Origin: Aliihoeflea sp. 40Bstr573
GTDB taxonomy: Bacteria > Pseudomonadota > Alphaproteobacteria > Rhizobiales > Rhizobiaceae
Length of the DNA: 64,000 bases
Direction of reading: 5' to 3'
NCBI RefSeq assembly: GCF_024105655.1
Contig: NZ_JAAAMH010000006.1
Location: forward strand, 124,001-188,000
The position numbers and the translations under genes are program-made. Shown piece by piece: positions 14,232 to 63,864 of the stretch; within the stretch, counting starts at the first letter, position 1; the number at the start of each line of letters is the position of its first letter. Under the pieces are notes generated by a model. That model was not told the origin of the DNA. It ran no database searches and saw nothing but the letters and a program-made list of their open reading frames with translations.

Positions 14232-14285
14232 CGGGCTCGCTCGAAACGGGGTAGAAGTGCGGCCCAAAATGAACGAGCCTGCCCG

Positions 14286-17072
14286 ATGGCCAAGATTCCC
14301 CTGAGACTGGACGAGATCGTCGACGGCGCGAAACTGCGCCGGGACCTGTCCGAACTGACCGCGCCGCATGCCGGCGAGGGCGGGCGCGACGACGTGCGCA
14401 GGGGCGCGCTCCAGCTGCTCAAGAACCGCATGGCCGAAGGCCGTGCAAAGGCTGAGACGATGCTGATGGAGGACGGCGGCGGCACGGCCTGCGCCGAGCG
14501 TCTTTCGCATCTGATGGACGAAGTCATCCGCGCGCTCTACGAATTCGCGGTCGCCCATGTTCACCGGCCCAAGACCCCGGCCGAGCGCATGGCGGTGATC
14601 GCCGTCGGCGGCTATGGGCGCGGCACGCTGGCGCCGGGATCGGACATCGATCTTCTCTTCCTGCTGCCGGAAAAGCACACCGCCTGGGCCGAGAAGGTGG
14701 CCGAATACATTCTCTACATGCTGTGGGATCTGGGGCTTAAGGTCGGCCACGCAACGCGCAACAGCGACGAATGCATGCGCCTGTCGCGCACCGACGTGAC
14801 GATCCGGACCTCGATCCTCGAGGCGCGATTTGTGTGGGGCGACGAGGCGCTTTTCGACGGGCTGGTCGAGCGCTTCGACGAGGAAGTCGTCAAGGATACG
14901 GGCGCCGAATACGTGCAGGCAAAGCTCGCCGAGCGCGACCAGCGCCACGCAAAGGGTGGCGATACGCGCTATCTTGTCGAGCCCAACGTCAAGGAAGGCA
15001 AGGGCGGCTTGCGCGACCTGCACACGCTGTTCTGGATCGGCAAGTATTTCTACCGCGTCCCCACCGCAGAAGAACTGGTCGGCAAGGGCGTCTTTACCCG
15101 GCGCGAGTATCTCGAGTTCCGCAAGGCGGAAGATTTCCTGTGGGCGGTGCGCTGCCACATGCACTTCCTGACCGGGCGGGCCGAGGAACGGCTGCATTTC
15201 GACATCCAGCGCGAGATCGCCGAACGGCTCGGCTACACCAGCCATCCTGGCCTTTCGGCCGTCGAGCGCTTCATGAAGCACTATTTCCTGATGGCGAAGA
15301 CCGTGGGCGACCTGACGCGCATCTTCTGCGCAGCGCTGGAGGAAGAGCAGGCCAAGCACGTTCCTGGCTTCAACCGCATCTTCCTCAACTTCTCGCGCCG
15401 GCGGCGCAAGCTTGCCGGGACGAGCGATTTCGTCACCGACAATCACCGCATCAACGTCATCGATCAGGACGTCTTCAAGCGCGATCCGGTCAATCTGATA
15501 CGGATTTTCTGGTTGGGCGACCGGCACGGGCTCGAATATCACCCCGAAGCGTTGAAGCTCGTCACGCGCTCCTTGAAATTGATCGACCGGAACCTGCGCC
15601 GCGACGAGGAGGCGAACCGCCTCTTCATGGACATCCTGACCTCGAACCGCAATCCGGAGCTGAACCTGCGCCGGATGAACGAGGCAGGCGTCCTCGGCAA
15701 GCTCATCCCCGAATTCCGCAAGATCGTGGCGATGATGCAGTTCAACATGTACCACCACTACACGGTGGACGAGCATCTGATCCGCTGCATCGGCGTTCTG
15801 TCGGAAATCGAGTGCGGCGACGGGGCGGAAATCCATCCCCTATCGCACACGCTGATGCCGGAACTGAAGCGCCGGCGCAAAGTGCTCTATGCCGCGGTCC
15901 TGTTGCACGACATCGCCAAGGGGCGGCCGGAGGACCACTCGACGGCGGGCGCGCGCATCGCGCGTCGGCTCTGCCCGCATATGGGCTTCAACGCTGCCGA
16001 CACAGAGACCATAGCCTGGCTGGTCGAGAACCATCTCGTCATGTCGATGACGGCGCAGACGCGCGACCTGAACGACCGCAAGACGATCCAGGATTTCGGT
16101 GACGTGGTGCAGTCGGTCGAGCGGCTGAAGCTGCTGTTGATCCTGACCGTCTGCGACATCCGCGGCGTCGGGCCGGGTGTGTGGAACGGCTGGAAGGGCC
16201 AGCTCCTGCGCACGCTCTACTATGAGACCGAACTGCTCCTGACCGGCGGATTTTCGGAAGTATCGCGCGCAAAGCGGGCCGAGATCGCGCGTGGGCAACT
16301 GGCCGATGCTCTCACCGACTGGTCGCCGGAGGAAGGGCGCCGCTATGTCGCGCTCCACTACGACAACTATCTCCTGACCGTCGATCTGAAGGACCAGCTC
16401 CGCCACGCCGCCTTCCTGCGCGAGACCGACATTGCCGGGCGCAAGCTGGCGACGGCGGTGAAGACGCACGAGTTCGAGGCGGTGACGGAGATCACCATTC
16501 TGTCGCCCGACCATCCGCGCCTGCTTTCGGTGATCGCGGGCGCCTGCGCGGCGGCGGGGGCCAACATCGTCGATGCGCAGATATTCACGACGACCGACGG
16601 ACGCGCGCTCGATACCATCTTGATCTCACGCGAGTTCGACCGCGACGAGGACGAACTGCGCCGCGCACGACGTGTCGGCGCGCTGATCGAGGACGTGTTG
16701 TCGGGCAAGAGCTGGCTGCCGGAAATCATCGAGAAGCGCGCCAAGCCCAAGCGCGGGTCGAAGACCTTCCGGCTGGAGCCGCGCGCCGATGTGCGCAACA
16801 CGCTCTCCAACCGCTTTTCGGTCGTCGAGGTGAAGTGCCTCGACCGGCCGGGCCTTCTGTCGGAGATCACCGGTGCGATCTCGGACCTGTCCCTCGACAT
16901 CGCCTCGGCGCACATCACCACCTTTGGCGAGAAGGTGATCGACACTTTCTACGTCACCGACCTGACCGGCGCGAAGATCGAGAATCCGACACGGCTCGCC
17001 ACGATCCGCAAGCGGCTGATCCAGACGCTCGGCGGCGAGAAGGCCGAGAGCGCGAAGCAGGCGGCGGAATAG
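14286..17072 (+). CDS. glnD: Bifunctional PII uridylyltransferase/uridylyl-removing enzyme
   Basis: A 928-residue nitrogen sensor that uridylylates PII when glutamine is low and removes UMP when glutamine is high. The nucleotidyltransferase motif is [20 protein letters not shown] at about residue 105. The HD hydrolase domain (about 490-620) has [11 protein letters not shown] and [14 protein letters not shown]. Two ACT domains (about 735-810, [16 protein letters not shown], and about 845-920, [15 protein letters not shown]) form the glutamine sensor. Length and domain order are those of rhizobial GlnD. murJ starts 11 bp after its stop, so the two are probably co-transcribed. Confidence 0.97.
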
Positions 17073-48457: not shown

Positions 48458-49477
48458 ATGAAGAAGATCGATATTTTCAACCACATCTGGCCGAAACCGT
48501 TTTTCGATGCGCTGATCGCGCATATCGGCGAGATGACCGACATCACAATGCGCTCCGGCGCCGTGCCGATGATGACGGATCTCGACCGCCGCTTCGAAGT
48601 CATGGACAAGTTCGGCGAGGATTACCAGCAGGTGCTTTCGCTTGCCTCGCCGCCGTTGGAAAAGCTGGCCGGACCCGAAAAGGCGCTTGAACTGTCGAAG
48701 ATCGGCTCGGACTCCATGGCCGAACTGTGCCGGAAGTATCCCGAGCGCTTCCCTGCTTTCGTCGGCACCGCCCCGATGAACAATCCCGACGCGCTGGTCG
48801 AGGAATGCCGCCGCGCGGTCGAGGACCTGGGCGCGGCCGGCATGCAGATCTTCACCAACATCGCCGGAAACCCGGTCGATCTGCCGGAATACGAGCCGTT
48901 CTTCGAATATATGGCAAAGGCCGGCAAGCCGGTCTGGCTGCACCCGGCGCGCGGCGAGAATTTCGCCGACTACAAGAACGAAAGCCGGTCTGAATACGAG
49001 ATCTGGTGGACCTTCGGCTGGCCATACGAGACCTCGGCCGCGATGGCGCGCATGGTCTTCTCGCGGTTCTTCGACAAGTTCGAGGGACTGAAAGTCCTCA
49101 CCCACCATGCCGGCGGCATGATCCCCTTCTTCGAGGGCCGCGTCGGCCCCGGCTGGGACCAGATGGGCAAGCGCACGACGGACCGCGACCTGGCGGCCGT
49201 GCGCAAGGCGCTGAAGCGCCCGCATCTCGACTACTTCAAGGAGTTCTATGCCGATACGGCCTCGTTCGGTTCGGCCAAGGCGATCGAGCATGCGATCGAG
49301 TTCTTCGGCGAGGACCGGGTGATGTTCGCTTCCGACGCGCCCTTCGATCCCGAAGGCGGGCCAATGTACATTCGCGAGACGATCCGCATCCTCGAGGAAC
49401 TCGACATCTCCGACGAGCTGCGCGCCAAGCTCTTCGAGGGCAATGCGCGCAAGTTCCTGGGGCTCGGCGCGGCATGA
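48458..49477 (+). CDS. Amidohydrolase-family protein (ACMSD-like decarboxylase/hydrolase)
   Basis: A 339-residue TIM-barrel protein of the amidohydrolase_2 family, which holds ACMSD, gamma-resorcylate decarboxylase and related ring-acid enzymes. Metal or catalytic residues visible are H9, the His in VWLHPARGE, the His pair in LTHHAGGM and the Asp in MFASDAPFDPE. The first His of the usual HXH motif is replaced (DIFNHIWP), so metal binding may differ. I recall this variant as a regular subfamily, not a defect. It is followed by the aldehyde dehydrogenase with an ATGA overlap. Confidence 0.85.
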   Translation: MKKIDIFNHIWPKPFFDALIAHIGEMTDITMRSGAVPMMTDLDRRFEVMDKFGEDYQQVLSLASPPLEKLAGPEKALELSKIGSDSMAELCRKYPERFPAFVGTAPMNNPDALVEECRRAVEDLGAAGMQIFTNIAGNPVDLPEYEPFFEYMAKAGKPVWLHPARGENFADYKNESRSEYEIWWTFGWPYETSAAMARMVFSRFFDKFEGLKVLTHHAGGMIPFFEGRVGPGWDQMGKRTTDRDLAAVRKALKRPHLDYFKEFYADTASFGSAKAIEHAIEFFGEDRVMFASDAPFDPEGGPMYIRETIRILEELDISDELRAKLFEGNARKFLGLGAA

Positions 49478-50913
49478 CGACCGCACTCAACTATATCGGC
49501 GGCGAATGGGTGAAGGGCGCGGGCGCGCGCGACAGCCTGAACCCCGCCGACGGCAGCGTGCTCGGCACTTATGAGCCGGGCACCAGGGCCCTCGCCGACC
49601 AGGCCGCGGCGCTCGCCCGCGAAACCTTCGAAACGACCGGCTGGGCCTCGTCGCCGCGCTTGCGCGCGGCGGTGCTGTTCGAATTCGCCGACAGGCTGGA
49701 AGCGGCGAAGGAGGAAATCGCGGACCTTGTCGTTGCCGAGAACGGCAAGCTGAGGCGCGAGGCGCTCGGCGAGACGATGGGAGCGATTTCGGAGATCCGC
49801 TACTACGCGGGTCTCGCGCGCACCGTGCTCGGCCGCACGCTCGAGACGATGCCCGGCAATTTCTCGATGATGAATCGCGAGGCGGCAGGTGTCGCGGCGA
49901 TCATCGTGCCATGGAACGCGCCGGTGACGCTGCTTGCGCGCTCGCTGGCCCCGGCGCTCGCCGCCGGCTGCACGACCGTGATCAAGCCCGCGCCGCAGAC
50001 GCCGCTGATCCACGCGCGGATCATGCGCTGCCTTGCCGAATGCCCGTCGCTGCCGAAAGGCGTCGTCAATTCGGTCAACGAGCAGGGCTCTGAAGTCGGC
50101 GAGGCACTGGTGGCGTCGAGCGACATCGACGTCATCTCGTTCACCGGATCGAGCGCGACCGGCAAGCGCATCATGGCGGGCGCGGCTCCGACCTTGAAGC
50201 GCCTGTCGCTCGAACTCGGCGGCAAGGCGCCGGCAACCGTCTTCGCCGATGCTGATCTCGACCAGGCCGTGCGCGAACTGACCGGCGGCTCGCTGGTGAT
50301 GGCAGGGCAGATCTGCGTCGCAGCAGCGCGATTCCTGGTCGAGAAGTCCGTCGCGAAGGAGTTCACCGACCGGATCAAGGCGGCGTTCTCGGCAGTGAAG
50401 GTCGGGCCGGGCGGCGATGCCCAAAGCCAGATGGGCTCGCTCATCGACATCGGCAATCGCGACCGCGTCTCGCGGCTGATCGAACAGGCTGGCGACGAGG
50501 GCGAGTTGGTGCTGAAGGGTGGCGTTCCCGATGGGGCGTTGTCAAAGGGCGCCTTCCTGACCCCGACGCTCTTCACGATCGACGATGTCGCCTCGCCGCT
50601 GGTGCAAGAAGAACTCTTCGGCCCGATCGTCTCGATAGAGACCTTCGAGAGCGAGGCGGAAGCCGCCAGGAAGGCAAACGCGACGGAATATGGCCTTGCC
50701 GCCAGCGTCTTCACGCGTGACCTCAATCGGGCGATGCGCATGTCGCGCGCCGTTCGCGCCGGCACGGTCTGGCTCAACTGCCATGGGCGCCTTTTCGCCG
50801 AGGGCGAGACCGGCGGCTATCGCCAGTCGGGCCTCGGCCGGCTCCACGGCGTCGAGGGGCTGAACGATTTTCTCGAAACCAAGCATGTCTATCTCGAGGC
50901 CGGCGCGATCTGA
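49474..50913 (+). CDS. NAD(P)-dependent aldehyde dehydrogenase
   Basis: A 479-residue member of the ALDH superfamily. The oxyanion Asn lies in IVPWNAPVTLL, the NAD motif is FTGSSATGKRI, the general base Glu is in LELGGKAP, and the nucleophile Cys is in GQICVAAAR. EELFGPIVSI is the C-terminal signature. Many relatives oxidise aromatic or semialdehyde intermediates such as vanillin, salicylaldehyde or muconic semialdehydes. The start is fixed by the ATGA overlap with the preceding stop. It should oxidise the aldehyde made by a neighbouring enzyme, perhaps the TPP-dependent one. Confidence 0.93.
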   Translation: MTTALNYIGGEWVKGAGARDSLNPADGSVLGTYEPGTRALADQAAALARETFETTGWASSPRLRAAVLFEFADRLEAAKEEIADLVVAENGKLRREALGETMGAISEIRYYAGLARTVLGRTLETMPGNFSMMNREAAGVAAIIVPWNAPVTLLARSLAPALAAGCTTVIKPAPQTPLIHARIMRCLAECPSLPKGVVNSVNEQGSEVGEALVASSDIDVISFTGSSATGKRIMAGAAPTLKRLSLELGGKAPATVFADADLDQAVRELTGGSLVMAGQICVAAARFLVEKSVAKEFTDRIKAAFSAVKVGPGGDAQSQMGSLIDIGNRDRVSRLIEQAGDEGELVLKGGVPDGALSKGAFLTPTLFTIDDVASPLVQEELFGPIVSIETFESEAEAARKANATEYGLAASVFTRDLNRAMRMSRAVRAGTVWLNCHGRLFAEGETGGYRQSGLGRLHGVEGLNDFLETKHVYLEAGAI

Positions 50914-50931
50914 TCGCGCCGACCCGATGCA

Positions 50932-52530
50932 ATGAATGAACGGAAAATGATGACGGGCGAAATGGAACGGCAAGCGGATGTTGTGGTCGTCGGCGGCGGA
51001 CCAGTCGGTACGGGGCTGGCTATCGAGCTTGGCCAGCGCGGCATCCGGACGATCGTCGTCGAGCGCTATCCAACGCCGCAGCGCGTGCCGAAGGGCCAGA
51101 ACCTGACGCAGCGCACCATGGAGCATTTCCATTTCTGGGGCGCGGAAAAGGAGCTGCGCGCCGCGCGCACCGTGCCGAAAGAATACGGGATCGGCGGCCT
51201 CACCGCCTACGGCACGCTTCTCGGCGACTATCACTATGACTGGCTGCAGCGCGAGCTCGTGCGGCCCTACTACTTCACCGACAATGAGCGGCTGCCGCAA
51301 TATGCAACCGAGGACGTTCTGCGCGCGCGTGCGGCCGAGATCGACGCCGTCGAGACGCTCTACGGCTATTCCGGCGAGGCGATCGAGGAAGATGAGGGCG
51401 GGGTGACGGTGACAGCCGCGCCGCGTGATGGCGGAGCGCCGGTGAAGGTCCGCGCGCGCTATCTCGTCGGCTGCGACGGCAGCAAGTCTGCCGTGCGCGA
51501 CATGGCCGGCATCACGCAGACCCGTTCGGACCACGACAGGTTGATGGTGCTGCTCGTCTTCCGCTCGACGGGGCTCCACGAGCTCTTGAAGCGCTTTCCC
51601 GGCAAGTCGTTCTACAACGTTCTGCACCCGGATCTGAAAGGGTACTGGCAGTTTTTCGGCCGCGTCGATCTCGGCAATACCTGGTTTTTCCATGCGCCGG
51701 TGCCGGCCGACACGACCAAGGACAATTTCGACTTCACCGGCTATCTGCATCGCGCGGTGGGTGCGGCATTCGACGTCGAGTTCGAGCATATCGGCTTCTG
51801 GGACTTGCGCGTCGCGATTGCCGACAGCTACCGCACGGGCAATGTGTTCATTGCCGGAGACGCCGCGCACAGCCATCCGCCCTATGGCGGCTACGGCATC
51901 AATACCGGCTTCGAAGACGCGCGGAATCTCGGCTGGAAGATCGCTGCGACGCTGCAGGGCTGGGGCGGCGAGAACCTGCTCGACAGCTATGATGCCGAGC
52001 GCCGCCCGGTCTTCGCCTCGACGGCGAAGGATTTCATCGAAAAGGCGATCGAGAGCGACCGGGCCTTCCTCGAAACGCATGACCCCGATTGCGACCGCGC
52101 GGCCTTCGAGCGCGAATGGACGGCGCGGGGATCGGGCGCGCGCGACGAGGTCAACGCCTTCGAGCCGAACTATCGCGGTTCGCCGATTGTGACAGGCGCG
52201 GGCGGGCAGACCAACGCCATTGGCGGCCACACCTTCAAGGCGCGGCCCGGGCACCATCTGGCGCCGCGGAAAATGTCGAATGGCGAAAACGTCTATGACC
52301 GGCTGGGATCTGGCTTCACGCTTCTGGCACTCGGCGGTGAAGACGGTGTCGAGCGTTTCGAGGCCGCGGCGGACGAAGCGGGTATCCCGCTGACGATTGT
52401 CATGGACGATGCAGCGGGCGAGACGTCCGATTACGGAGCGCGATACGTGCTCGTGCGACCCGACCAGTTCGTCGCCTTTGCGGGCGATGCGCTTTCCCCG
52501 GACCTGCTCGTCCACGCTACGGGACGCTGA
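50932..52530 (+). CDS. FAD-dependent aromatic monooxygenase (PheA/TfdB family)
   Basis: A 532-residue flavoprotein hydroxylase. The FAD-binding GXGXXG reads VVVVGGGPVGTGLAIEL at about residue 17, the DG motif is LVGCDGSKSAVRDMAG, and the second FAD motif is GNVFIAGDAAHSHPP. The C-terminal thioredoxin-like domain is short (about 440-530). The family hydroxylates phenols, hydroxybenzoates and related rings with NAD(P)H and oxygen. Presence with a TRAP importer, amidohydrolase and ALDH supports breakdown of an aromatic acid. A strong hairpin terminator follows 22 bp after the stop. Confidence 0.9.
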   Translation: MNERKMMTGEMERQADVVVVGGGPVGTGLAIELGQRGIRTIVVERYPTPQRVPKGQNLTQRTMEHFHFWGAEKELRAARTVPKEYGIGGLTAYGTLLGDYHYDWLQRELVRPYYFTDNERLPQYATEDVLRARAAEIDAVETLYGYSGEAIEEDEGGVTVTAAPRDGGAPVKVRARYLVGCDGSKSAVRDMAGITQTRSDHDRLMVLLVFRSTGLHELLKRFPGKSFYNVLHPDLKGYWQFFGRVDLGNTWFFHAPVPADTTKDNFDFTGYLHRAVGAAFDVEFEHIGFWDLRVAIADSYRTGNVFIAGDAAHSHPPYGGYGINTGFEDARNLGWKIAATLQGWGGENLLDSYDAERRPVFASTAKDFIEKAIESDRAFLETHDPDCDRAAFEREWTARGSGARDEVNAFEPNYRGSPIVTGAGGQTNAIGGHTFKARPGHHLAPRKMSNGENVYDRLGSGFTLLALGGEDGVERFEAAADEAGIPLTIVMDDAAGETSDYGARYVLVRPDQFVAFAGDALSPDLLVHATGR

Positions 52531-52601: not shown

Positions 52602-54158
52602 TCAGGCGACCTTGCGCTTCTCGCTGAAGGCGATGTCTCCGACGACGCGCGCGCGCACACGGCGGGCGTCGCCCGGCAGATAGGCGATCGGAATGTCTTC
52701 GGTGTCGAGCGTGGTGATCGTGCCGGGCTGCGCACCGGCCTCGATCGCACGCTCGCGCGCCAGCTTCTCGGCCTCGGCAATGGCCGCATCGCGCGAGAGG
52801 CCGGAAAACACCTGATCCACTTCGCCGGAAACCTGCGCCATTGCCGCGCCGAGCGCGTTGGCGACGCCGGCATGCTCGACGCGCAGCACTTCGCGCACGC
52901 CGGCGAGCTTCTCGGGAATGAGGAAAGAGCCGCCGCCGACCGCGATGAGCTGAACGCCCTCGGCCGAGGTCTTCATGCGGTCGACGCTGTCCTCGACCAT
53001 CTTCTCGATGCGCTTCAGGAGGGTCGAGACGGTGGATGCATCGAGATGCTTCACGCGGTCGCGGTCGCCGATCTCGACAAGCCCGGCGGCCACGGCGACG
53101 TCCGTGGTCGTCAGCGTCGAGCCACCGAATACCAGCGCTTCGCTGGTGATTCGGTAGCCGACGCTGCGCGGTCCGATCGTGCCCCGATCGAGATCGATGA
53201 TGGTGCCGCCGCCAAGCGCCATCGGAAGAAGGTCCGGCATGCGGAAGAGGGTGCGCACGCCGCCCACTTCCACAACGTTGTTGGCTTCGCGCGGAAAACC
53301 GCCAACGAGGCAGCCGATGTCGCTGGTCGTGCCGCCGACGTCGACGACCATGGCTTCCTTGAGGCCGGTCAGGAATGCCGCGCCGCGCATCGAATTGGTC
53401 GGGCCGGAGGCGAAGCTGTAGACCGGGTTCGCGGCCGCGACTTCGGCCAGCACGACGGTGCCGTCGTTCTGCGTCAGGTAGAACGGGGCGTGGACGCCCG
53501 ATTCCTTCAGCGCCTGGCCGAAGGCGCCGACCGTGCGCTGGCCAAGCCCCTGAAGAGCGGCGTTGAGAAGCGTGACGTTCTCGCGTTCCAAAAGCCCGAT
53601 CCGGCCGAGCGTGTGCGACAGGGTAATGCGCGCATCGGGCATGACCTGGCGCACGATCTCGGCCGCCTCGACCTCGCATTCGGTGGTCAGCGGCGAGAAG
53701 AGCGCCGTGATGCCGACCGACTGGATGCCCGCGTCGCGGATCTTCATCGCCGCCTCGCGCACCGCATCGCGGTCGAGCGGGACGAGGGGGCGACCGTCAT
53801 ATTCGTGGCCGCCCTCGACCATGAAGCTCATCGGCTCGACGGATTCGCGCAGGTCGTCCGGCCAGTCCACCATCGGCGGCAGCGAGGCGCCGGCCGGCAT
53901 GGCGATGCGGATTGCGGCGACGCGCTCCAGCCGGGCGCGCTCGACGACTGCATTGGTGAAATGGGTCGTGCCGATCATCACCGCGTCCACCGGCGCAGCG
54001 TGGGCCGGCTGGCTCGCCGTGACGTGGCGGATCGCGTCGACCACGCCCTTCATCACGTCCGACGTGGTGGGGAACTTGATGGCGGAAAGAACGGTCTCGC
54101 CGTCGATGAGGACGGCGTCCGTGTTGGTGCCGCCGACGTCAATGCCGATACGCTTCAT
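52602..54158 (-). CDS. HyuA-type hydantoinase/oxoprolinase family protein
   Basis: A 518-residue protein of the hydantoinase/oxoprolinase A family with an actin-like ATP fold: phosphate-1 is GIDVGGTNTDAVLID and phosphate-2 is VVDVGGTTSDIG. Hydant_A_N (about 4-180) and Hydantoinase_A (about 195-480) domains are both present. Members use ATP to open hydantoin or 5-oxoproline rings. It is shorter than HyuA with its long C-terminal part, and no HyuB gene is present; this short form usually pairs with DUF917, as here. The start overlaps the DUF917 stop as ATGA. Confidence 0.88.
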   Translation of the reverse strand: MKRIGIDVGGTNTDAVLIDGETVLSAIKFPTTSDVMKGVVDAIRHVTASQPAHAAPVDAVMIGTTHFTNAVVERARLERVAAIRIAMPAGASLPPMVDWPDDLRESVEPMSFMVEGGHEYDGRPLVPLDRDAVREAAMKIRDAGIQSVGITALFSPLTTECEVEAAEIVRQVMPDARITLSHTLGRIGLLERENVTLLNAALQGLGQRTVGAFGQALKESGVHAPFYLTQNDGTVVLAEVAAANPVYSFASGPTNSMRGAAFLTGLKEAMVVDVGGTTSDIGCLVGGFPREANNVVEVGGVRTLFRMPDLLPMALGGGTIIDLDRGTIGPRSVGYRITSEALVFGGSTLTTTDVAVAAGLVEIGDRDRVKHLDASTVSTLLKRIEKMVEDSVDRMKTSAEGVQLIAVGGGSFLIPEKLAGVREVLRVEHAGVANALGAAMAQVSGEVDQVFSGLSRDAAIAEAEKLARERAIEAGAQPGTITTLDTEDIPIAYLPGDARRVRARVVGDIAFSEKRKVA

Positions 54159-55234
54159 GATGCAAATACCGATTTGAATTCGAGGTCGTAGCCGAAGGCA
54201 CGCGGGCCGACATGTTCGAGGCCCTTCGGCGTCTGCAGGACGGCTGGCGCGGGCAGGGCGACGGCGGTGACGCGCTGGCCGTAGCGCACCGTCTCCGTGC
54301 CGATCGCTTCGCCCGACACGGTGTCGAGAAGGCAGATCAGGTCGGGCGTCATGGCGATGGGCTGACCATCGCGGAAGGCGACGGCCCACTCGTTCTGGAA
54401 CGAGAGTTCGAAGCTCGCGCCACGATCGTTGTCGAGCCCCTCGATCTTCGCCGCGCCGCGCAGGAAACCGCCCGTCGTGGTTCGGTCGACGTCGGTGACC
54501 TTGCCCTTGAAGAGCTCGATGCCCCCTTCGTGCTCCAGCACGGCGGCGACGGGGTCGGCATGCCGCGCCCGTGCGTCGAGAACGGCGCGGCCGAGGCTGG
54601 TCGCCTTGGTGACGGTGTGGAGGACGCCCCAGTCCTTGACTTCCCGGCCGGTGCGCGGCGCCTTGCAGGTGGCAGACGTCGAGCCGACTTCGGTGCAGAC
54701 CTTGCGCGATATGCGCTCCATCCACTTCCAGCTCGCCGCCTTGGCGACGATCGTCTCGTTGTCTCGGCAATCGACCAGCGTCAGCGGATACATCTGAAGG
54801 TCGCCGATGGCGAACGACGTCATCTGCGCTTCCGGATAGGCGCGGCCCATGGCGTCGGCGTCGACGACCGGAATGTCGAGCATTGCGCCGGCGAGGAAGG
54901 GCGACAGCGCGTTGCCGCCGCCGATTTCCACGCTCATCACGGCGCGGAACGGCTTGCCGGTATATTCTTCCATCAGCTTCATGGCGCGGGCGAGATGGGC
55001 CGGATCGACCAAGCGTTCCTGGCCGACGAGCGGCGCGCCCATCTTGGAGACGACCGCGACCGCGTCGTTGTCGTCAAGCGCCAGCGGGTCGATCAGCCGG
55101 CACTTCCTGCCCTCGCGGTAAAGCTTCTTCAGGTTGAGCTGCGCCAGATAGGGGCTGCCGCCGCCGCCGGTTCCCAATATCCAGGCGCCCACGGCCAGCG
55201 GATCGATCTCGTCCGCCGCGAAGTCACGGATCAT
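54155..55234 (-). CDS. DUF917 (S-methyl-thiohydantoin desulfurase-like) protein
   Basis: A 359-residue protein of the DUF917 family (PF06032, now carried as S-Me-THD). The N-terminus AWILGTGGGGSPYLAQL has the Gly-rich loop of the family, then SVEIGGGNALSPFLAGA and VVDADAMGRAYPE. The related S-methyl-thiohydantoin desulfurase hydrolyses a sulfur-bearing hydantoin, so a ring-cleavage or desulfuration step on a hydantoin-like compound is likely here. It is the first gene of the operon with hyuA and diverges from the AroM-LuxR gene across 130 bp holding a 24-bp dyad. Confidence 0.85.
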   Translation of the reverse strand: MIRDFAADEIDPLAVGAWILGTGGGGSPYLAQLNLKKLYREGRKCRLIDPLALDDNDAVAVVSKMGAPLVGQERLVDPAHLARAMKLMEEYTGKPFRAVMSVEIGGGNALSPFLAGAMLDIPVVDADAMGRAYPEAQMTSFAIGDLQMYPLTLVDCRDNETIVAKAASWKWMERISRKVCTEVGSTSATCKAPRTGREVKDWGVLHTVTKATSLGRAVLDARARHADPVAAVLEHEGGIELFKGKVTDVDRTTTGGFLRGAAKIEGLDNDRGASFELSFQNEWAVAFRDGQPIAMTPDLICLLDTVSGEAIGTETVRYGQRVTAVALPAPAVLQTPKGLEHVGPRAFGYDLEFKSVFAS

Positions 55235-55284
55235 GTCTTGCCTCCAAATATTTGGCGAGAAGCTAGCTTCGAAAGCGGGCCGAC

Positions 55285-55308
55285 AATATAAGGAACTGCC
55301 CCTATATT
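55285..55308. promoter_or_regulatory. Shared operator A, DUF917/AroM-LuxR divergent promoter
   Basis: Outer arms AATATA and TATATT pair perfectly around a 12-base core; the inner 20 bases are TATAAGGAACTGCCCCTATA (55287-55306). Its reverse complement matches the site before the second AroM gene at 16 of 20 positions. It stands about midway between the two starts. Confidence 0.7.
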
Positions 55309-55364: not shown

Positions 55365-56303
55365 GTGACCATGAAGGATATGAGCTCGGGAACGACGTCG
55401 CCAAGAAAGGTGATGTTCGTCAGCGTCGGGCAGACCCCGCGCGCCGACCTCATCGGGGAAATGCTGGCCAATCTCGACATGCCCATCGAGGCCATGGAAC
55501 TCGGCGCGCTCGACGGTCTGTCGCGGCACGAGATCGACGAATTGCGCGTTCGGCAGGGCGAGACGAGCATCGTGACGCGGCTGGCGGACAACAGCGAGAT
55601 CGTGGTCTCCAAGCCACGCATCGGAGAGCGCATGGCGCGGCTGGTTGCCGGCTTCAAGCCGAACGAGTTCGACCTTGTCGTGATCCTGTCGACCGGGCTC
55701 TTCCGCGATTTCGAAAGCACGTGCCCGACCGTCAATGCGCAGCGGGCACTGGAATCGGCCGTCATTTCCCTGGCCGCTCAGGGCTCATCGGTGGGGCTGA
55801 TCCAGCCGCTGGAACAGCAGATCGTAGAACTCGACATTCCCGCGCTTCAGCCCTACCGGATCACGGCCAGCCATGCGGTCGACGGTGACCGCGCGTCGCT
55901 GGCCCGCGCGCTCTTCGACCTTGCCGAATGCGAGATCATCGTCCTGAATTCGGTGAGCTTTTCGGAAGCCGACCGCGAGATGGCGGCGAAGGTGACCGGC
56001 AAGCCGGTGGTGTTGGCGCGGCGAATCATCTCGAGCGCGATCCGGCTTCTCCTCTACCGGCCACAGCCGATCAGCCTGCCGGGCATGTCCGGCGAGTTCG
56101 CCGAGCGCGTCAACCGGCTGACACCGCGCGAACGGCAGGTCATGTCGCTGGCTTCCGAAGGCCTGTCCAACAAGGCGATCGCCCGCCAGCTCGGCATCAG
56201 CCCGAAGACGGTCGAGATTCATAGGTCCCATGTCATGGCGAAGATGGAGGTGACGTCTTCCGCCGCCCTCATCCGCCTGGTCATTCAGGCTGGTCACCCC
56301 TGA
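55365..56303 (+). CDS. AroM-domain and LuxR helix-turn-helix fusion regulator
   Basis: A 312-residue fusion. Residues of about 14-232 are an AroM domain, starting KVMFVSVGQTPRADLIGEML. Residues of about 249-308 are a LuxR-type helix-turn-helix (RLTPRERQVMSLASEGLSNK, then IARQLGISPKTVEIHR). In the stand-alone AroM next door C104 and C191 lie in VVLLCTGT and VVMHCMGYT; the matching positions here are S109 (VVILSTGL) and S196 (IVLNSVSF). The domain therefore probably binds a ligand without catalysis. GTG at 55365 sits 11 bases after AAGGAG; ATG at 55371 is an alternative. It diverges from DUF917-hyuA. I know no described regulator with this layout. Confidence 0.85.
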   Translation: MTMKDMSSGTTSPRKVMFVSVGQTPRADLIGEMLANLDMPIEAMELGALDGLSRHEIDELRVRQGETSIVTRLADNSEIVVSKPRIGERMARLVAGFKPNEFDLVVILSTGLFRDFESTCPTVNAQRALESAVISLAAQGSSVGLIQPLEQQIVELDIPALQPYRITASHAVDGDRASLARALFDLAECEIIVLNSVSFSEADREMAAKVTGKPVVLARRIISSAIRLLLYRPQPISLPGMSGEFAERVNRLTPRERQVMSLASEGLSNKAIARQLGISPKTVEIHRSHVMAKMEVTSSAALIRLVIQAGHP

Positions 56304-56372
56304 TCGCTGCCGGGGAATCGGGCATGCCGATGCTTGCGAATGCGGCAGGCCGGACCGGTAATTTGCACTTCA

Positions 56373-56392
56373 GCTAGGGGGAGTTCCCTATA
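56373..56392. promoter_or_regulatory. Shared operator B, upstream of the AroM gene
   Basis: GCTAGGGGGAGTTCCCTATA contains the inverted repeat TAGGG-N6-CCCTA. It matches operator A (reverse complement) at 16 of 20 positions, including the core AGTTCC. It ends 60 bp before the AroM start. Confidence 0.7.
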
Positions 56393-56452
56393 GTCCGCGA
56401 GGCTTTTTGACGGCTAGGCTTCGGTATTAGATTGCCTGAGGAAAGAAGCTGC

Positions 56453-57130
56453 ATGTCGCGCATTTCACGTATCGCCTTCGTTACGATCGGCCAGACGCCG
56501 CGGTCCGACATCGTGCCGGAAATGATGGCCGAGATCGCGGCCGGCCTCGAGGTTCGCCCTTCCTATGAGGAGTTCGGCGTGCTCGACGGGCTTGAAGGCG
56601 CCGATCTCGACGCCTTTCGCGCCAGGGACGGCGAGCATTCCTTCGCGACGCGCCTCGCCTCGGGCGAGGAGATCGTCTCCTCGAAGGCGCGCACCGAAGA
56701 ACGGCTCAACGAATTGCTGGCCGAGATCGACGGCAAGGGCTTCGACATCGTCGTGCTGCTTTGCACCGGCACTCGCATCGATCCGCTCCAGAACACGCTG
56801 GTCGTCGAAGCGCAGCGCATCGTCGATTCGACGGTGGAGGCGCTGGCCGCTTCGTGCCGCAATCTCGGCGTCATCCTTCCGCTCGAGCGGCAGGTGGCCG
56901 AGTTCGGTCAGCGCCATGTCTTCGCCGGCAACCCGACTGTCGTGTCGGCCTCGCCCTATTCGGGCGCGGGCATGGCGGCTGGCGCAAAGGGCGTCGCGGC
57001 CTGCGATCTCGTGGTGATGCACTGCATGGGCTACACGGCCGCCATGCTCGACGAGATTCGCCAGGCGGTCGACGCGCCGGTGCTGCTGTCGCGCCGCGTC
57101 GTCGCGGGCGTCGTGCGCCAGATGATTTGA
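56453..57130 (+). CDS. AroM-family protein (Asp/Glu/hydantoin racemase-like)
   Basis: A 225-residue stand-alone AroM protein. It begins RIAFVTIGQTPRSDIVPEMM and shares the whole fold with the N-terminal domain of the LuxR fusion. Two cysteines sit where Asp/Glu and hydantoin racemases carry theirs: C104 in IVVLLCTGT and C191 in VVMHCMGYT, the second resembling the VLGCAG-type motif of HyuE. The family function is unknown; racemase-like chemistry on a hydantoin is a hypothesis. ATG at 56453 follows GAGGAAAG. It leads an operon with a dipeptide-type ABC importer, 38 bp before the binding-protein gene. Confidence 0.85.
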   Translation: MSRISRIAFVTIGQTPRSDIVPEMMAEIAAGLEVRPSYEEFGVLDGLEGADLDAFRARDGEHSFATRLASGEEIVSSKARTEERLNELLAEIDGKGFDIVVLLCTGTRIDPLQNTLVVEAQRIVDSTVEALAASCRNLGVILPLERQVAEFGQRHVFAGNPTVVSASPYSGAGMAAGAKGVAACDLVVMHCMGYTAAMLDEIRQAVDAPVLLSRRVVAGVVRQMI

Positions 57131-57168: not shown

Positions 57169-58758
57169 ATGATGAGGAAACTGGTTCTATCCGCGATGGC
57201 CGCGGCGCTGCTTGCCGGCAGCTTCATGGCTTCGCCCGCATCCGCCTTCGAACGGACCGAGGATGGCGAGATCATCGTCTTCGCCGGTCGGCAGGCGATC
57301 CCGGTGCTTGATCCGCACGTGCGCTACGACTGGTCGACGCGCATGGTGCAGCAGGCCGTCTACGACGCGCTGGTCAAGTATGAAGGCGATCCGGCTGAGA
57401 TCAAGCCGTGGATCGCCGAGAGCTGGGAGACCAGCGAGGACGGCAAGACCTGGACCTTCAAGCTGGTCGAGAACGCCAAGTTCCACAATGGCGACCCGGT
57501 CAATGCCGAGGCGGTGCGCTATTCCTTCGAGCGCGGCCTGAAGCTGAACAAGGGCGTTGCCTGGATGCTCAAGGACTTCCTGGCGCCCGAAGGCGTCTCG
57601 GTGGTCGACGACTACACGGTCAAGTTCGAGCTAAAGGCGCCTTACGCGCCGTTCCTGTCCTTCCTGCCCTGGTGGTTCATCGTCAACCCGGCCGAAGTTC
57701 AGGCCAATGAGGTCGATGGCGATTATGGCGAAGCCTGGCTGACCGAGAACGCCGCCGGTTCCGGTCCGTTCAAGCTGGGCCGCTGGGAGCCGAACGTGCT
57801 CTACGAGCTGCAGTCGGTCGCCGATTACTGGAAGGGCTGGCCGCAGGGCGAGAACCGTCCCGCCGGCGTGATCTACCGCATCATCCGCGAGCCTTCCGCA
57901 CAGCGCGCCTCGCTCCAGCGCGGCGAGGTCGACATCGTCGAGGGCCTGACCTCGGACGACTATGTGCAGATCGCCAACATGCCCGGGATCGAGATCCAGA
58001 ACCACAAGGGCATGACGACCTTCGGCATCAAGTTCAACACGCAGCAGGGTCCGACCGCCGACATCAACCTGCGCAAGGCGATCGCCCACGCGCTCGACTA
58101 CGATGCGCTGGTCCAGATCTACAACGGTGCCGCCTCGCTGCAGACGAGCCCGTTGCCGGACGGCATGCGCGGACACATCGACGTCGCCGACATTCCGCGC
58201 CAGGACCTGGAAAAGGCGAAGGAATATCTCGCCAAGTCAGAGCATCCCGAAGGCGGCATCACGCTGGAATATGTCCACGTCGCCGGCCTCGAGGAGGCGC
58301 GCCGCATCGGCCTGGTGCTGCTGGATAACCTCAAGGCGCTCAACATCAATGTCGAGATCAAGCCGGAGCAGTGGCCGAACATGGTCGCCAACGGCTCGCG
58401 GGTCGAAACCTCGCCGGCAATGACTTCGGTCTATGTCACGCCGATCTCGACGGACCCGGACGCCGTGGCCTATCAGTACCACAAGAACTCCTGGGGTCAG
58501 TATTACGCCATGGCGTTTTACGACAACCCGGAGGTCTCGAAGATGATCGACGAGGCCCGCGCCGCGACCGACTGGGACAAGCGTGCCGACCTCTACGCCA
58601 AGATCCAGACGCAGATCGTCGCCGACCAGCCGGAAGTCTTCGGCATGCTGCAGAACCGCCGCTGGGCGCACCGCGACTACCTGAAGGGCTTCCAGTTCAG
58701 CCCGGTCCGGTTCACCGGCGAGGTCGACCTCTACCCGCTCTGGGTCGAGGCCGAGTAA
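57169..58758 (+). CDS. Dipeptide/oligopeptide-type ABC substrate-binding protein
   Basis: A 529-residue SBP_bac_5 (DppA/OppA class) protein. The signal peptide is MMRKLVLSAMAAALLAGSFMASPASA. The family pattern is present: IPVLDPHVRYDWSTRMVQQAVYDALVKYEG, then PWIAESWETSEDGKTWTFKL. Such proteins bind peptides, nickel complexes, opines or other zwitterions. The ribosome site AAAGGGG precedes two adjacent ATG codons (57169 and 57172). Its place after AroM and the shared operator suggests that it brings in the compound handled by DUF917 and HyuA. Confidence 0.92.
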   Translation: MMRKLVLSAMAAALLAGSFMASPASAFERTEDGEIIVFAGRQAIPVLDPHVRYDWSTRMVQQAVYDALVKYEGDPAEIKPWIAESWETSEDGKTWTFKLVENAKFHNGDPVNAEAVRYSFERGLKLNKGVAWMLKDFLAPEGVSVVDDYTVKFELKAPYAPFLSFLPWWFIVNPAEVQANEVDGDYGEAWLTENAAGSGPFKLGRWEPNVLYELQSVADYWKGWPQGENRPAGVIYRIIREPSAQRASLQRGEVDIVEGLTSDDYVQIANMPGIEIQNHKGMTTFGIKFNTQQGPTADINLRKAIAHALDYDALVQIYNGAASLQTSPLPDGMRGHIDVADIPRQDLEKAKEYLAKSEHPEGGITLEYVHVAGLEEARRIGLVLLDNLKALNINVEIKPEQWPNMVANGSRVETSPAMTSVYVTPISTDPDAVAYQYHKNSWGQYYAMAFYDNPEVSKMIDEARAATDWDKRADLYAKIQTQIVADQPEVFGMLQNRRWAHRDYLKGFQFSPVRFTGEVDLYPLWVEAE

Positions 58759-58778
58759 GCCAGGCAGACAACAACGCA

Positions 58779-58804
58779 GCGGGAAGCGCCACGGCGCTTC
58801 CCGC
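58779..58804 (+). other. Intercistronic hairpin after the binding-protein gene
   Basis: A perfect 11-bp stem, arms GCGGGAAGCGC and GCGCTTCCCGC, with a CACG loop, 20 bp after the binding-protein stop. There is no T-run. It probably protects the 5' part of the message and lowers permease output. Confidence 0.7.
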
Positions 58805-58823
58805 ATCAGGGGACCAGGAGACG

Positions 58824-59831
58824 ATGCTGAGTTTCACATTGCGCAAGCTGGCGGCGCTGGTGGGGACCATGCTCGGCATCGCCGCGCTGACCTTCCTCAT
58901 CACCAATGTCGCGCCGGGCGACCCGGCAAGGCTCGTCGCCGGTCCCAACGCGACCGAGGATATGGTCGAAACCATTCGCGTCCAGAACGGCCTCGACAAG
59001 CCGGTGACCGAGCAGTTCGTCATATATATGAGCGACCTCGTGCGCGGCGATCTCGGCACCTCGATCGTGACGACGCGCCCCGTCCTTGACGAACTCCTGC
59101 GCTATGCGCCCGCCACGATCGAGCTGGTGCTGGTGGCGATGGCGCTCGGCATTCTCGTCGGCGTACCGATGGGCATGCTCTCGGCGGTCTACCGCAATAG
59201 CTGGTTCGACCACGCCACCCGCATCTTCTCGATTTCCGGCGTCGCGCTGCCGGCCTTCTGGTTCGGCATTCTGCTCCAGCTCCTGTTCGCGGTGCAGATG
59301 GGTTGGCTCCCGGTTTCCGGACGCCTGCCGCTCGTCGCGCTGCCGCCCGAGCCGATCACGCATCTGCTTCTGGTCGACAGTCTCCTGCGCGGACAGTTCG
59401 ATACGTTCTGGACCGCGTTGAAGCATATCATCCTGCCGGCGGTCGTACTCTCCTTCCCCTGCCTTGCTTCGATCCTGCGTGTGAACCGCGCCGAGATGAT
59501 CGAGGTGCTCTCGTCCGACCATGTCGTCGCTGCCCGCGCGCACGGCCTGTCCTCCCGACGCATCGTCGCGCTTTATGCGCTGAAGAACGCCATGCTGCCG
59601 ACGCTGGCCATGATCGGCCTACGCTTCGGCTGGATGCTGGGCTCGACCGTGCTGGTGGAGACCGTGTTCGACTGGCCCGGCATTGGGCTCTACGCCGTCT
59701 CGTCCGCGCTTGCCTCCGACTTCAAGCCCGTGATCGGCGTGACGCTCCTGATCGGCTTCTTCTTCATCGTCGCCAACACGATCGTCGACCTCGCCTATGC
59801 CTGGATCGACCCCCGACTGAGGAACGCGTGA
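58824..59831 (+). CDS. ABC transporter permease, DppB type
   Basis: A 335-residue inner-membrane permease with six helices. The N-terminus LSFTLRKLAALVGTMLGIAALTFLITNVAPGDPA is that of the DppB/OppB class. The coupling loop (EAA) is near DHVVAARAHGLSSRRIVALYALKNAMLP. GGAG precedes the ATG at 58824. The stop overlaps the next ATG by one base (TGATG). Confidence 0.93.
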   Translation: MLSFTLRKLAALVGTMLGIAALTFLITNVAPGDPARLVAGPNATEDMVETIRVQNGLDKPVTEQFVIYMSDLVRGDLGTSIVTTRPVLDELLRYAPATIELVLVAMALGILVGVPMGMLSAVYRNSWFDHATRIFSISGVALPAFWFGILLQLLFAVQMGWLPVSGRLPLVALPPEPITHLLLVDSLLRGQFDTFWTALKHIILPAVVLSFPCLASILRVNRAEMIEVLSSDHVVAARAHGLSSRRIVALYALKNAMLPTLAMIGLRFGWMLGSTVLVETVFDWPGIGLYAVSSALASDFKPVIGVTLLIGFFFIVANTIVDLAYAWIDPRLRNA

Positions 59832-60741
59832 TGACGACCAGCGACCTGACAACGCCCGTTCGCCTGACCTTTCGTGAGCGTCATGAAAGCCGCATCCGGC
59901 AGCTGCGGCTCTATGCCTACACCTTCGCGGCCAGCTTCTCCTCGATGCTGGGCCTCGTGCTCGTCATTCTGTTTCTGGCACTTGCAGCCTTCGGGCCTTG
60001 GCTGGCGCCGTATCCCGAACACACGACCGGCGCGTTCAATATGGCCGAGCGCCTGCAGCCGCCGAGCGCGGACCACTGGTTCGGCACCGACGAGATGGGG
60101 TCCGATATACTGTCGCGCGTCATCGTCGGTGCGCGCACGTCGCTTTGGATCGGCCTTTTGATCACCGGCATAGGCGCCGGCATCGGCATACCGCTCGGCA
60201 TTATCGCGGGCTATGCCGGCGGCTGGACGCGGGCGGCGATCATGCGCTTCACCGAACTGTTCCTCGCCGTGCCGGGGCTGGCGCTCGCCCTCGCCATCGT
60301 CGCGGCGCTCGGGCCGGGCATCACCAACTGCGTCATCGCGCTCGCCATCGTCTGGTGGCCAGGCTATGTGCGCCTCGTCGAAGCCAAGACGCTTTCCGTT
60401 AAGGAAGAGCTCTTCGTTGAATCCGCCCGCTCGCTCGGTGCGCGCACGCCATGGATCATGTGGCACCATATCCTGCCGAATTGCTGGTCCCCGATCATCG
60501 TCAAGATGAGCATGGACATGGGCATGGCGATCCTCGCCGCCGCCAGCCTCGGCTTCATCGGGCTCGGCGCGCGTCCGCCTGCGCCCGAATGGGGCGCGAT
60601 GATCTCGGTCGCGCGCAGCTACATGCCCGACTGGTGGTGGTATTCGTTCTTCCCCGGCGCCGCGATCTTCCTCACCGTGCTCGGCTTCAACCTTCTCGGC
60701 GACGGCCTGCGCGACATCCTCGATCCCCGGAGCCGTGAGCG

Positions 60742-60745
<4 letters not shown>
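59831..60745 (+). CDS. ABC transporter permease, DppC type
   Basis: A 304-residue inner-membrane permease. The N-terminal cytosolic segment (about 1-35) leads to helix 1, followed by the OppC signature PSADHWFGTDEMGSDILSRVIVGAR and the EAA loop ESARSLGARTPWIMWHHILPN. It pairs with the DppB-type subunit to form the channel. It overlaps the ATPase gene start by 4 bp (ATGA). Confidence 0.93.
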
Positions 60746-62388
<1,643 letters not shown>

Positions 62389-62391
62389 GGC

Positions 62392-63864
62392 CTATGCCGT
62401 AAGCTCCTTGCCGATGCGCACGATCTCGCCGACGACGAGGTTTAGATCGTTGTAGCGGGTGCGGTGGTTGCAGATCGCCGCGCGCAGGCTGTGATTGCCG
62501 CGCAGCGTCGTGTCGGTAAGAACGGCGATGCCGGATTCCTGGAGACGCAGCATGATCTCGGTGTTGAGCGCCTTCAGCGCCGGTTCGCCGAGCCCACCCG
62601 GATCGAAGCGGAAACAGACGATGTTGATGACCGTCGGCGCGGTGAGCGACAGCGTCGGCTCCGTCTCGACGAGGCGCGTCAGGTAATGCGCCATGTCGAT
62701 GTTCTGGTCGATCAGCCGGCCGAACTTGTCGACGCCATGCTCCTTCAGCGCCATCCAGACCTTCAGCGCGCGAAAGCCCCGGCTGGTCTGGAGACCGAGC
62801 TCGTAGAGCCATGCGCCCGAGGCGAGGCCGCGCTCGGACGTTGCGAGATATTCAGCAAACGTGCTGAAGGCGCCGCGATGCGCGGCGGCGTTGCGCACCA
62901 GGCAGCAGCCCACGTCGAACGGTGCATGGAGCCATTTGTGCGGGTCGAGCGCGAGCGAATCCGCGCGGGAAAGACCGTCGACGAGCTCGCGGTGGCCGGG
63001 CGCGATGGCGATGAGCGCGCCGATGCAGCCATCGACGTGGAACCACAGGGCTTCCTCGGCGGCCAGGTCGGCAAGCGCATTGAGATCGTCGATCGAACCC
63101 GTGTTGACCGAGCCGGCACTGGCGATGATGCAGGCAGGCCGGAAGCCCGCCGCGCGGTCCTCTGCGATCGCCTCTCGCAGGGCGGAAATGTCGATGCGCC
63201 AGCTCGCGTCGCTCGGAATGCGCCGCAGCGCGCGATTGCCAAGGCCGAGCGTTTCGACCGCCTTGCGGTGGCAGCTATGGAGCTGGTCGGAGCCGTAAAA
63301 GCGGAGCGGCCTTGGCACGGCGCCGATGCCCAGTTCGCGGATATCGATCCCGGCCTTGAGGTTGCGGGCGACCGTGAGGCCGATCAGGTTGGCAATCGAG
63401 CCGCCGCTGACGAGCGTGCCGCTCGCCGTATCGGGAAAGCCGACCATCTGCCGCAGCCAGTCGACGACTTGCTGGTCGACGAGGGCGGCGGCGTGCTTGC
63501 CGCCCCCGAGGTTGGAGGCCTGGACAGCGGCGATGAAATCCGCGAGCGCCCCGGTCATGTTGCCCGCACCCATGTACCAGGCCCAAAACCGCGGATGGCT
63601 GTTGCCCATCGGATAGGACATCACCGTTTCGCCCACGGTCTCGAGTACCTCACTCAGGGGCTGCGGCGCGCGCGGCGGCGGTCCGCTGAAGATTTCCGCC
63701 AATTCGCCTGGCAGGTCCCGCCAGGCCGGGCGCTCCCTAAGCGTCGCCATATGGGCGAACCCGTTGTCGACGATCTTGTGGGCGAGGGCGGCAAGCGCTC
63801 CCCAATCGGCTGGATCGAGCGTATCTTCCTGCGCCTGCGCAAGCATTTCGCGTCCCGCGTCCAT
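62392..63864 (-). CDS. PLP-dependent group II amino acid decarboxylase
   Basis: A 490-residue PLP decarboxylase of the aromatic/glutamate group. The cofactor lysine is K310 in LDPHKWLHAP; D278 in WFHVDGCIGA contacts the pyridine nitrogen and H196 in SDQLHSCHRK stacks on it. The start of the family, GNSHPRFWAWYMGAGN, is present. Substrates in the family include tyrosine, tryptophan, DOPA, glutamate, cysteine sulfinate and diaminobutyrate; no residue here decides among them. The gene follows a cysteine-synthase gene by 18 bp in the same direction. Confidence 0.9.
   Translation of the reverse strand: MDAGREMLAQAQEDTLDPADWGALAALAHKIVDNGFAHMATLRERPAWRDLPGELAEIFSGPPPRAPQPLSEVLETVGETVMSYPMGNSHPRFWAWYMGAGNMTGALADFIAAVQASNLGGGKHAAALVDQQVVDWLRQMVGFPDTASGTLVSGGSIANLIGLTVARNLKAGIDIRELGIGAVPRPLRFYGSDQLHSCHRKAVETLGLGNRALRRIPSDASWRIDISALREAIAEDRAAGFRPACIIASAGSVNTGSIDDLNALADLAAEEALWFHVDGCIGALIAIAPGHRELVDGLSRADSLALDPHKWLHAPFDVGCCLVRNAAAHRGAFSTFAEYLATSERGLASGAWLYELGLQTSRGFRALKVWMALKEHGVDKFGRLIDQNIDMAHYLTRLVETEPTLSLTAPTVINIVCFRFDPGGLGEPALKALNTEIMLRLQESGIAVLTDTTLRGNHSLRAAICNHRTRYNDLNLVVGEIVRIGKELTA

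Follow-up and report, generated by a model that had tools for sequence, protein, structure and literature searches.

An AroM domain joined to a LuxR-type helix-turn-helix: a probable ligand-sensing activator of an uptake and ring-opening gene cluster

LuxR-type class II activators usually bind near position -42, over the -35 region of the promoter, and enzymes of the racemase fold considered below use cysteine thiolates as an acid and base pair. The AroM family (PF07302) is described in the main text of PMC11055893 as uncharacterised and as enriched near cyclodipeptide oxidase genes together with DUF917 and hydantoin racemase genes. AroM is regarded there as a likely isomerase, AroM and DUF917 (S-Me-THD) proteins are both stated to lack experimental characterisation, and LuxR does not occur in that text. 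The first-pass annotation of the DNA studied here named no described regulator with an AroM-LuxR architecture, and none was found among the matches listed for the open-access literature.

The window, a stretch of 64,000 nucleotides from Aliihoeflea sp. 40Bstr573, contains a gene of this architecture, followed by a stand-alone AroM gene. The features of the two genes are as follows.

55365..56303, plus strand: AroM-LuxR fusion gene, 312 aa, GTG start
55416..56045, plus strand: AroM (PF07302) domain of the fusion, residues 18-227, predicted racemase fold, serine at both cysteine positions
55689..55691, plus strand: Ser109 codon of the fusion, counterpart of AroM C104
55950..55952, plus strand: Ser196 codon of the fusion, counterpart of AroM C191
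56115..56279, plus strand: LuxR/GerE helix-turn-helix (PF00196) of the fusion, residues 251-305
56453..57130, plus strand: stand-alone AroM, 225 aa, C104 and C191 present

In Pfam, the AroM domain of the fusion scored 140.8 bits (PF07302 cut-off 23.8) and the GerE domain 77.9 bits (PF00196 cut-off 23.5). The borders first read from the letters were about 14-232 for AroM and 249-308 for the LuxR-type domain. Only AroM and helix-turn-helix families were matched; no autoinducer-binding domain was found at E up to 0.1 and no receiver family was found in Pfam. The response-regulator matches listed from NCBIfam lay within residues 213-310 and were far below their own cut-offs. The next gene had been read as a stand-alone AroM, and its product indeed matched AroM over the whole length (175.2 bits, same cut-off). 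The gap between the two genes is about 150 bp and holds a promoter-like element. These two genes gave the only PF07302 matches in the source genome.

The occurrence of the fusion was then surveyed. At E up to 0.001, 16 of the 297 genomes sampled from the family carried a PF07302 match, as did 15 of 385 at class level and 14 of 398 at phylum level. In a second class of the phylum (that of G967), one genome out of 369 had a match, to a stand-alone protein. Beyond these samples, 14 control genomes and plasmid records were covered. Around the sample matches, profiles of the two domains picked out 19 different fusions and 33 different stand-alone proteins with more than 100 bits, and the fusions came from ten family-sample genomes (the source genome included) and eight class-sample genomes. 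A scan of named genomes with the fusion AroM domain yielded 43 loci with relatives, in Rhizobiaceae (e.g., Neorhizobium), Microvirga, Methylobacterium, Martelella, Sulfitobacter, Ferrovibrio and others, which are Alphaproteobacteria or unplaced Pseudomonadota. The locus collections overlap; for example, the contigs of G007 and L103 are of equal length, as are those of L126 and L103. After the exclusion of L084 (unread bases) and L100 (broken frame), 41 named-genome fusions remained, whose frames measured 298-321 aa from the AroM start. The 29 of them that were aligned had helix-turn-helix columns in common, and GerE was above the cut-off in all nine fusions scanned and in all three further ones. 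Since the architecture recurs in other genomes, chance or an assembly artefact was rejected as its origin; the fusion is more than a chance joining because the genome holds only two PF07302 matches, the arrangement is found elsewhere, and the cysteines are lost throughout the fusions. In Mesorhizobium sediminum (L100), the fusion and ABC ATPase genes (8001-8677 and 13320-14932) each matched as two overlapping pieces and therefore look broken or affected by sequencing errors.

The two cysteine columns were compared in an alignment of 79 rows, some of them near-copies. Named genomes contributed 13 of their 41 fusions and 11 of their 43 stand-alone proteins; the other rows were all 19 fusions and 33 stand-alone proteins of the samples and three from plasmids. 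Only rows above 100 bits to our own AroM profile were counted, and the weak or partial AroM-like rows L012-L017, L026, L028, L042 and L049 were left out. The pairing of C104 and C191 with Ser109 and Ser196, noticed in the source genome, was the same in this alignment, and both cysteines were absent from all 34 fusions. By motif, the loss was also seen in 41 of 41 named-genome fusions. The fusions had Ser (26), Thr (5), Met (2) or Ala (1) in the first column and Ser (32) or Ala (2) in the second. Conservation in stand-alone AroM, on which the original reading depended, was complete for the second cysteine (45 of 45 rows) and partial for the first (38 of 45), the other seven rows, all of family code f199, having Ser. 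The G13, P16, R17, G42, D45, G106, G139 and V210 positions were kept in 34 of 34 fusions and T105, P143 and Q147 in 33. Relative to the 25 near stand-alone rows with CMGY or CMGF, E119 was kept in one fusion and was Asn or His in 33, while S167, P168 and Y169 were kept in 1, 4 and 1 of the 34, respectively. As judged from these residues, the fusions have retained the conserved core and lost the catalytic set, and their AroM domain is presumably without enzyme activity.

The cysteine pair is not a universal mark of stand-alone AroM, since C190 is the only cysteine in the AroM protein from E. coli strain 7/2. The first cysteine is absent from this protein (L127, 205-882) and from seven AroM proteins of one family code (L052-L055 and L057-L059), and the DNA of one of the seven f199-type rows was 72% identical to the E. 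coli gene. A search of E. coli genomes for AroM at high identity gave no match, and a looser one matched 5,375 of 5,426. The E. coli AroM, namesake of the family, may catalyze a one-cysteine reaction or none. In addition, a 653-aa frame (L042, 1483-3441, minus strand) had a partial AroM match at its C-terminus and matched no further Pfam family at E up to 1e-4.

A maximum-likelihood tree of the 79 AroM domains placed the 34 fusions on one side of a branch with support of 100/99 and a single state change, and this split was present in 100% of 200 bootstrap trees. The fusions grouped with 23 stand-alone proteins, among them one (L060) that comes from a different class. The long fusion rows L038 and L039 were flagged as joined, and several other long rows were flagged too, with the main split unaffected. 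In the source genome, the AroM domains of the fusion and the stand-alone protein were 34% identical, and this value together with the old split in the tree rules out a recent local duplication. The tree fits a single origin of the 34 fusions, and the clade and its cysteine loss would be explained by one duplication and fusion, with the cysteines lost before the known fusions split. The initial idea was that a duplicated enzyme-like domain lost its chemistry and became a sensor. The duplication, the cysteine loss and the DNA-binding domain were borne out, and the loss of activity and the sensing of a ligand are what we infer from them. One fusion on a long branch (L117, 8400-9284, in G268) has no S-Me-THD gene nearby, and its genome gave no PF06032 match.

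The predicted structures of the two proteins were examined as well. The model of the stand-alone AroM (mean pLDDT 91.8) matched the hydantoin racemase 2eq5 (Z 14.2, rmsd 3.3, 188 residues) and the allantoin racemase 5lfd (Z 13.2), and the model of the fusion (mean pLDDT 83.1) matched 5lfd (Z 13.3, rmsd 3.9, 191 residues), its C-terminus matching StyR, FixJ and NarL. In the fusion model, the stretch of lowest certainty (pLDDT below 50) covers residues 102-109, a few residues past the first former cysteine. The stand-alone AroM profile also matched 2eq5 by sequence (E 7.6e-4), and in this match each of the two AroM cysteines was aligned to a cysteine of the racemase. PF01177 scored 24.7 bits on the stand-alone AroM, below its cut-off of 31, and when the fusion domains were compared by sequence with solved structures, one match came up, at E 0.45. 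These models indicate that both AroM domains are likely to have the fold of hydantoin and allantoin racemases, the PLP-independent Asp/Glu/hydantoin type, and by homology with 2eq5 the two cysteines of AroM would lie in one pocket.

The genes on both sides of the fusion and AroM genes are as follows.

52602..54167, minus strand: HyuA-like hydantoinase/oxoprolinase, 521 aa, probable target gene
54155..55234, minus strand: S-Me-THD (DUF917) protein, 359 aa, probable target gene
57169..58758, plus strand: SBP_bac_5 substrate-binding protein of a dipeptide-type ABC transporter, probable target gene
58371..59831, plus strand: open frame with the first ABC permease (BPD_transp_1) in its 3' two thirds
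59303..60745, plus strand: open frame with the second ABC permease (OppC_N, BPD_transp_1) in its 3' part
60742..62388, plus strand: double ABC ATPase of the transporter

The S-Me-THD protein of the window scored 111.6 bits to the S-methyl thiohydantoin desulfurase model, below the cut-off of 450. Among the 43 named loci, an S-Me-THD gene lay divergent within less than 500 bp of the fusion in 42 (the exception, L101, begins at a contig end), HyuA was on the S-Me-THD side in 42, and the substrate-binding protein gene was present in 41. An AroM gene was found at most 700 bp from the fusion stop in 40 loci and at most 6 kb from it in 42. Of 13 further fusion loci, including two plasmids, 12 had S-Me-THD and HyuA close by, G268 being the one without. 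PF06032 was matched in 17 of 18 fusion genomes (again not in G268) versus 86 of 294 family-sample genomes. Inside the family sample, the proportion was 9 of 10 fusion genomes versus 77 of 284 (Fisher p 9e-5, with G268 taken as drawn into the sample and kinship not corrected). The near-constant partner of the fusion is the divergent S-Me-THD and HyuA pair, not AroM. The counts of synteny, like those of the boxes described below, are not independent, because the loci are related.

Several loci differ in detail. On the Ketogulonicigenium and Shinella plasmids, the fusion adjoins DUF917 and hydantoinase/oxoprolinase genes, and genes for M20-type hydrolases are close by. In the plasmid records, the fusions are annotated just as 'AroM family protein' or 'hypothetical protein', names that hide a regulatory role. 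G638 (L121) carries two fusions (5396-6298 and 12837-13724), one divergent to a stand-alone AroM and substrate-binding protein operon and the other divergent to S-Me-THD/HyuA. Tandem pairs of S-Me-THD genes stand beside the fusion in L119 (7702-9859) and L120 (8024-10173), and close pairs also occur elsewhere in the family sample. On the two sides of the cluster (48458-52530 and 62392-63864), the window has genes for amidohydrolase, aldehyde dehydrogenase, FAD monooxygenase and PLP decarboxylase, and such genes flank the cluster in L063 as well. The other named loci had only distant aldehyde dehydrogenase matches (35-37%; L078 and L104), so these flanking genes are probably outside the conserved system.

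To both sides of the fusion gene, partly palindromic 20-bp boxes resembling CTATAGGGnnnTGCCCCTAG were found, one in the divergent region and one between the fusion and AroM genes.

55260..55265, minus strand: -10-like TAGCTT of the S-Me-THD/HyuA promoter, 20 nt from box 1
55280..55308, plus strand: sigma-70-like match (CCGACA, 17, TATATT) of the fusion gene, overlapping box 1, from a consensus scan only
55286..55305, plus strand: box 1, ATATAAGGAACTGCCCCTAT, candidate operator in the divergent S-Me-THD/fusion promoter region
56374..56393, minus strand: box 2, CTATAGGGAACTCCCCCTAG (minus strand), candidate operator before the AroM/ABC-transporter operon
56415..56420, plus strand: -10-like TAGGCT of the AroM operon, 21 nt from box 2

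A box with at least 12 of the 17 fixed positions was present upstream of the fusion in 40 of the 43 loci (not in L101, L104 and L105) and after it in 37 (not in L098, L099, L101, L102, L104 and L105; for L098 and L099 the search covered 300 bp after the fusion). Block-shuffled regions reached at least 12 of 17 positions in 330 of 16,800 draws. At up to two mismatches, boxes 1 and 2 were the only matches in the window, where shuffles expect 0.01, and at up to one mismatch they were the only two places in the genome (4.2 Mb). At three mismatches, the genome had 7 matches, five more, versus 49 at up to three for a reversed control pattern. Since this control outnumbers the box, only the strict match is telling. 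By eye, the box was present at L113, L118 and L126 and absent in the stretch examined at the divergent fusion loci L114 and L119-L125, where the site must therefore differ or be absent.

The spacing of the boxes from promoter-like hexamers was also conserved. Towards S-Me-THD, a TAnnnT hexamer followed the box at a distance of 18-22 nt in 39 of 40 loci, all 39 with 20 or 21 nt. Towards AroM, the same was seen in 37 of 37 loci, 36 of these with 20 or 21 nt. By chance, with equal bases, about 8% per locus would be expected. If these hexamers are -10 elements, the box is centred near -42 of both target promoters. The consensus scan gave no sigma-70-like match at either of them. On the fusion's own side, no TAnnnT was found 18-22 nt from box 1 in any of the 40 loci, which is evidence against activation of the fusion's own gene from this box. 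On the fusion strand, the end of box 1 overlapped a -10-like TAnnnT in 24 of the 40 loci, and this overlap, together with the sigma-70-like match at 55280-55308, suggests that the fusion may repress itself.

Taken with the gene order, these features point to a one-component regulator, and we consider it likely that the fusion is a ligand-sensing activator of an uptake and ring-opening cluster, its sensor being a dead AroM domain of racemase fold. A small molecule imported by the dipeptide-type ABC transporter, or derived from the import, would occupy the old active-site cleft and shift the arrangement of the C-terminal helix-turn-helix of NarL/FixJ type. The fusion would then bind the two copies of the 20-bp box, centred near -42, and turn on the divergent S-Me-THD and HyuA pair as well as the downstream AroM and ABC transporter genes. 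In many relatives, the overlap of box 1 with a -10-like hexamer would in addition allow the regulator to repress its own gene. Going by the surrounding enzymes, our best guess for the ligand is a cyclic amide, hydantoin-like or diketopiperazine-like.

In the first-pass annotation, the fusion was instead thought to read the substrate or product of its paralogue. A regulator that reports on the stand-alone AroM, through a mixed dimer or by sensing only the substrate or product of AroM, would partly overlap with the proposed activator, and both the nearness of an AroM gene, at most 700 bp past the fusion in 40 of the 43 named loci, and the common predicted fold of the two domains are compatible with it, racemases with an AroM-like fold being often dimers. 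This idea did not hold up well across genomes, however. The fusion genomes G014, G464 and G561 (completeness 99, 100 and 100) have no second PF07302 match, which rules out a general dependence of the fusion on a stand-alone AroM, and G464 is also without a PF01177 match. Moreover, no AroM gene was present in the examined stretch of Sulfitobacter (L102) and Ketogulonicigenium (L113), and the Shinella plasmid (L114) has instead a gene of the aspartate/glutamate racemase family two genes downstream of the fusion. Since S-Me-THD/HyuA is the near-constant neighbour, the ligand is more likely a compound shared by the pathway, and a reader of AroM alone appears rather unlikely. Residual catalysis by the fusion, with Ser in the place of Cys, would make it bifunctional. 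Ser or Thr is indeed frequent at the first place (26 Ser and 5 Thr of 34) and Ser at the second (32 of 34), seven stand-alone rows have Ser at the first place, and E. coli AroM has a single cysteine. But neither cysteine is present in any of the 34 fusions, the first place is taken by Met in two of them and by Ala in one, the second by Ala in two, and little remains of the S-P-Y motif, which leaves this reading very improbable.

The boxes also admit of other uses. Catabolic clusters are often under repression, and the fusion could be a repressor released by its ligand, with the boxes as ordinary operators over the -35 region; a box at -42 is usable by a repressor, and the overlap of box 1 with the fusion-strand TAnnnT in 24 of 40 loci and with the sigma-70-like match fits self-repression. 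At both target promoters, however, the box stands about 20 nt before TAnnnT, on the place of the -35 element, and the consensus scan found no sigma-70-like match at either, so we regard repression of the targets as unlikely. The failure to find the box at some divergent fusion loci would fit boxes that belong to a different, unlinked regulator, the fusion acting elsewhere. This seems improbable given that, at up to one mismatch, the box occurs genome-wide only on either side of the fusion gene. Activation by the fusion from the two boxes remains our preferred reading.

The fusion and its candidate operators offer a direct route to the natural substrate, since the compound that switches the box-bearing promoters would be the inducer of the pathway. 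The clade would also be a clear example of a sensor made from an enzyme domain: its single origin is supported, the catalytic residues were apparently lost by the time of the common ancestor of the known fusions, and a regulon is predicted for it. A further thought, which we put forward as a doubtful possibility, is that these dead-racemase regulators read the handedness or ring form of a cyclic amide nutrient and switch on the enzymes of its uptake and opening. If true, the regulator would be a stereochemical sensor whose ancestor, an enzyme, inverted the very centre that the sensor now reads.

The fusion can be compared with several known systems. The predicted fold of both the fusion and the stand-alone AroM is like that of the hydantoin, allantoin and Asp/Glu racemases (PF01177; 2eq5, 5lfd), and the stand-alone AroM resembles 2eq5 in having both cysteines on those of 2eq5, whereas the fusions have Ser, Thr, Ala or Met at the places of the cysteine pair. 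The N-terminal domain of PrpR (2pju, part of a transcription regulator) appeared in the Foldseek results of both models as a lead only, the match being weak (E about 3e-3, TM-scores below 0.4). Like the AroM family as described in the main text of PMC11055893, the fusion has the AroM domain and neighbours of the DUF917 and dipeptide/oligopeptide ABC transporter types, but it differs in lacking both cysteines and in carrying a helix-turn-helix, and on its residues it would not be classed as an AroM enzyme. With the LuxR/NarL/FixJ regulators (PF00196) it shares the C-terminal GerE helix-turn-helix and the structural match to StyR, FixJ and NarL. The partly palindromic 20-bp box near -42 presumably resembles the known sites of such regulators. 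The quorum-sensing LuxR receptors, however, have an autoinducer-binding domain at the N-terminus and the NarL/FixJ response regulators a receiver, and where LuxR/NarL/FixJ regulators carry a receiver, autoinducer-binding or PAS domain, the fusion carries AroM.
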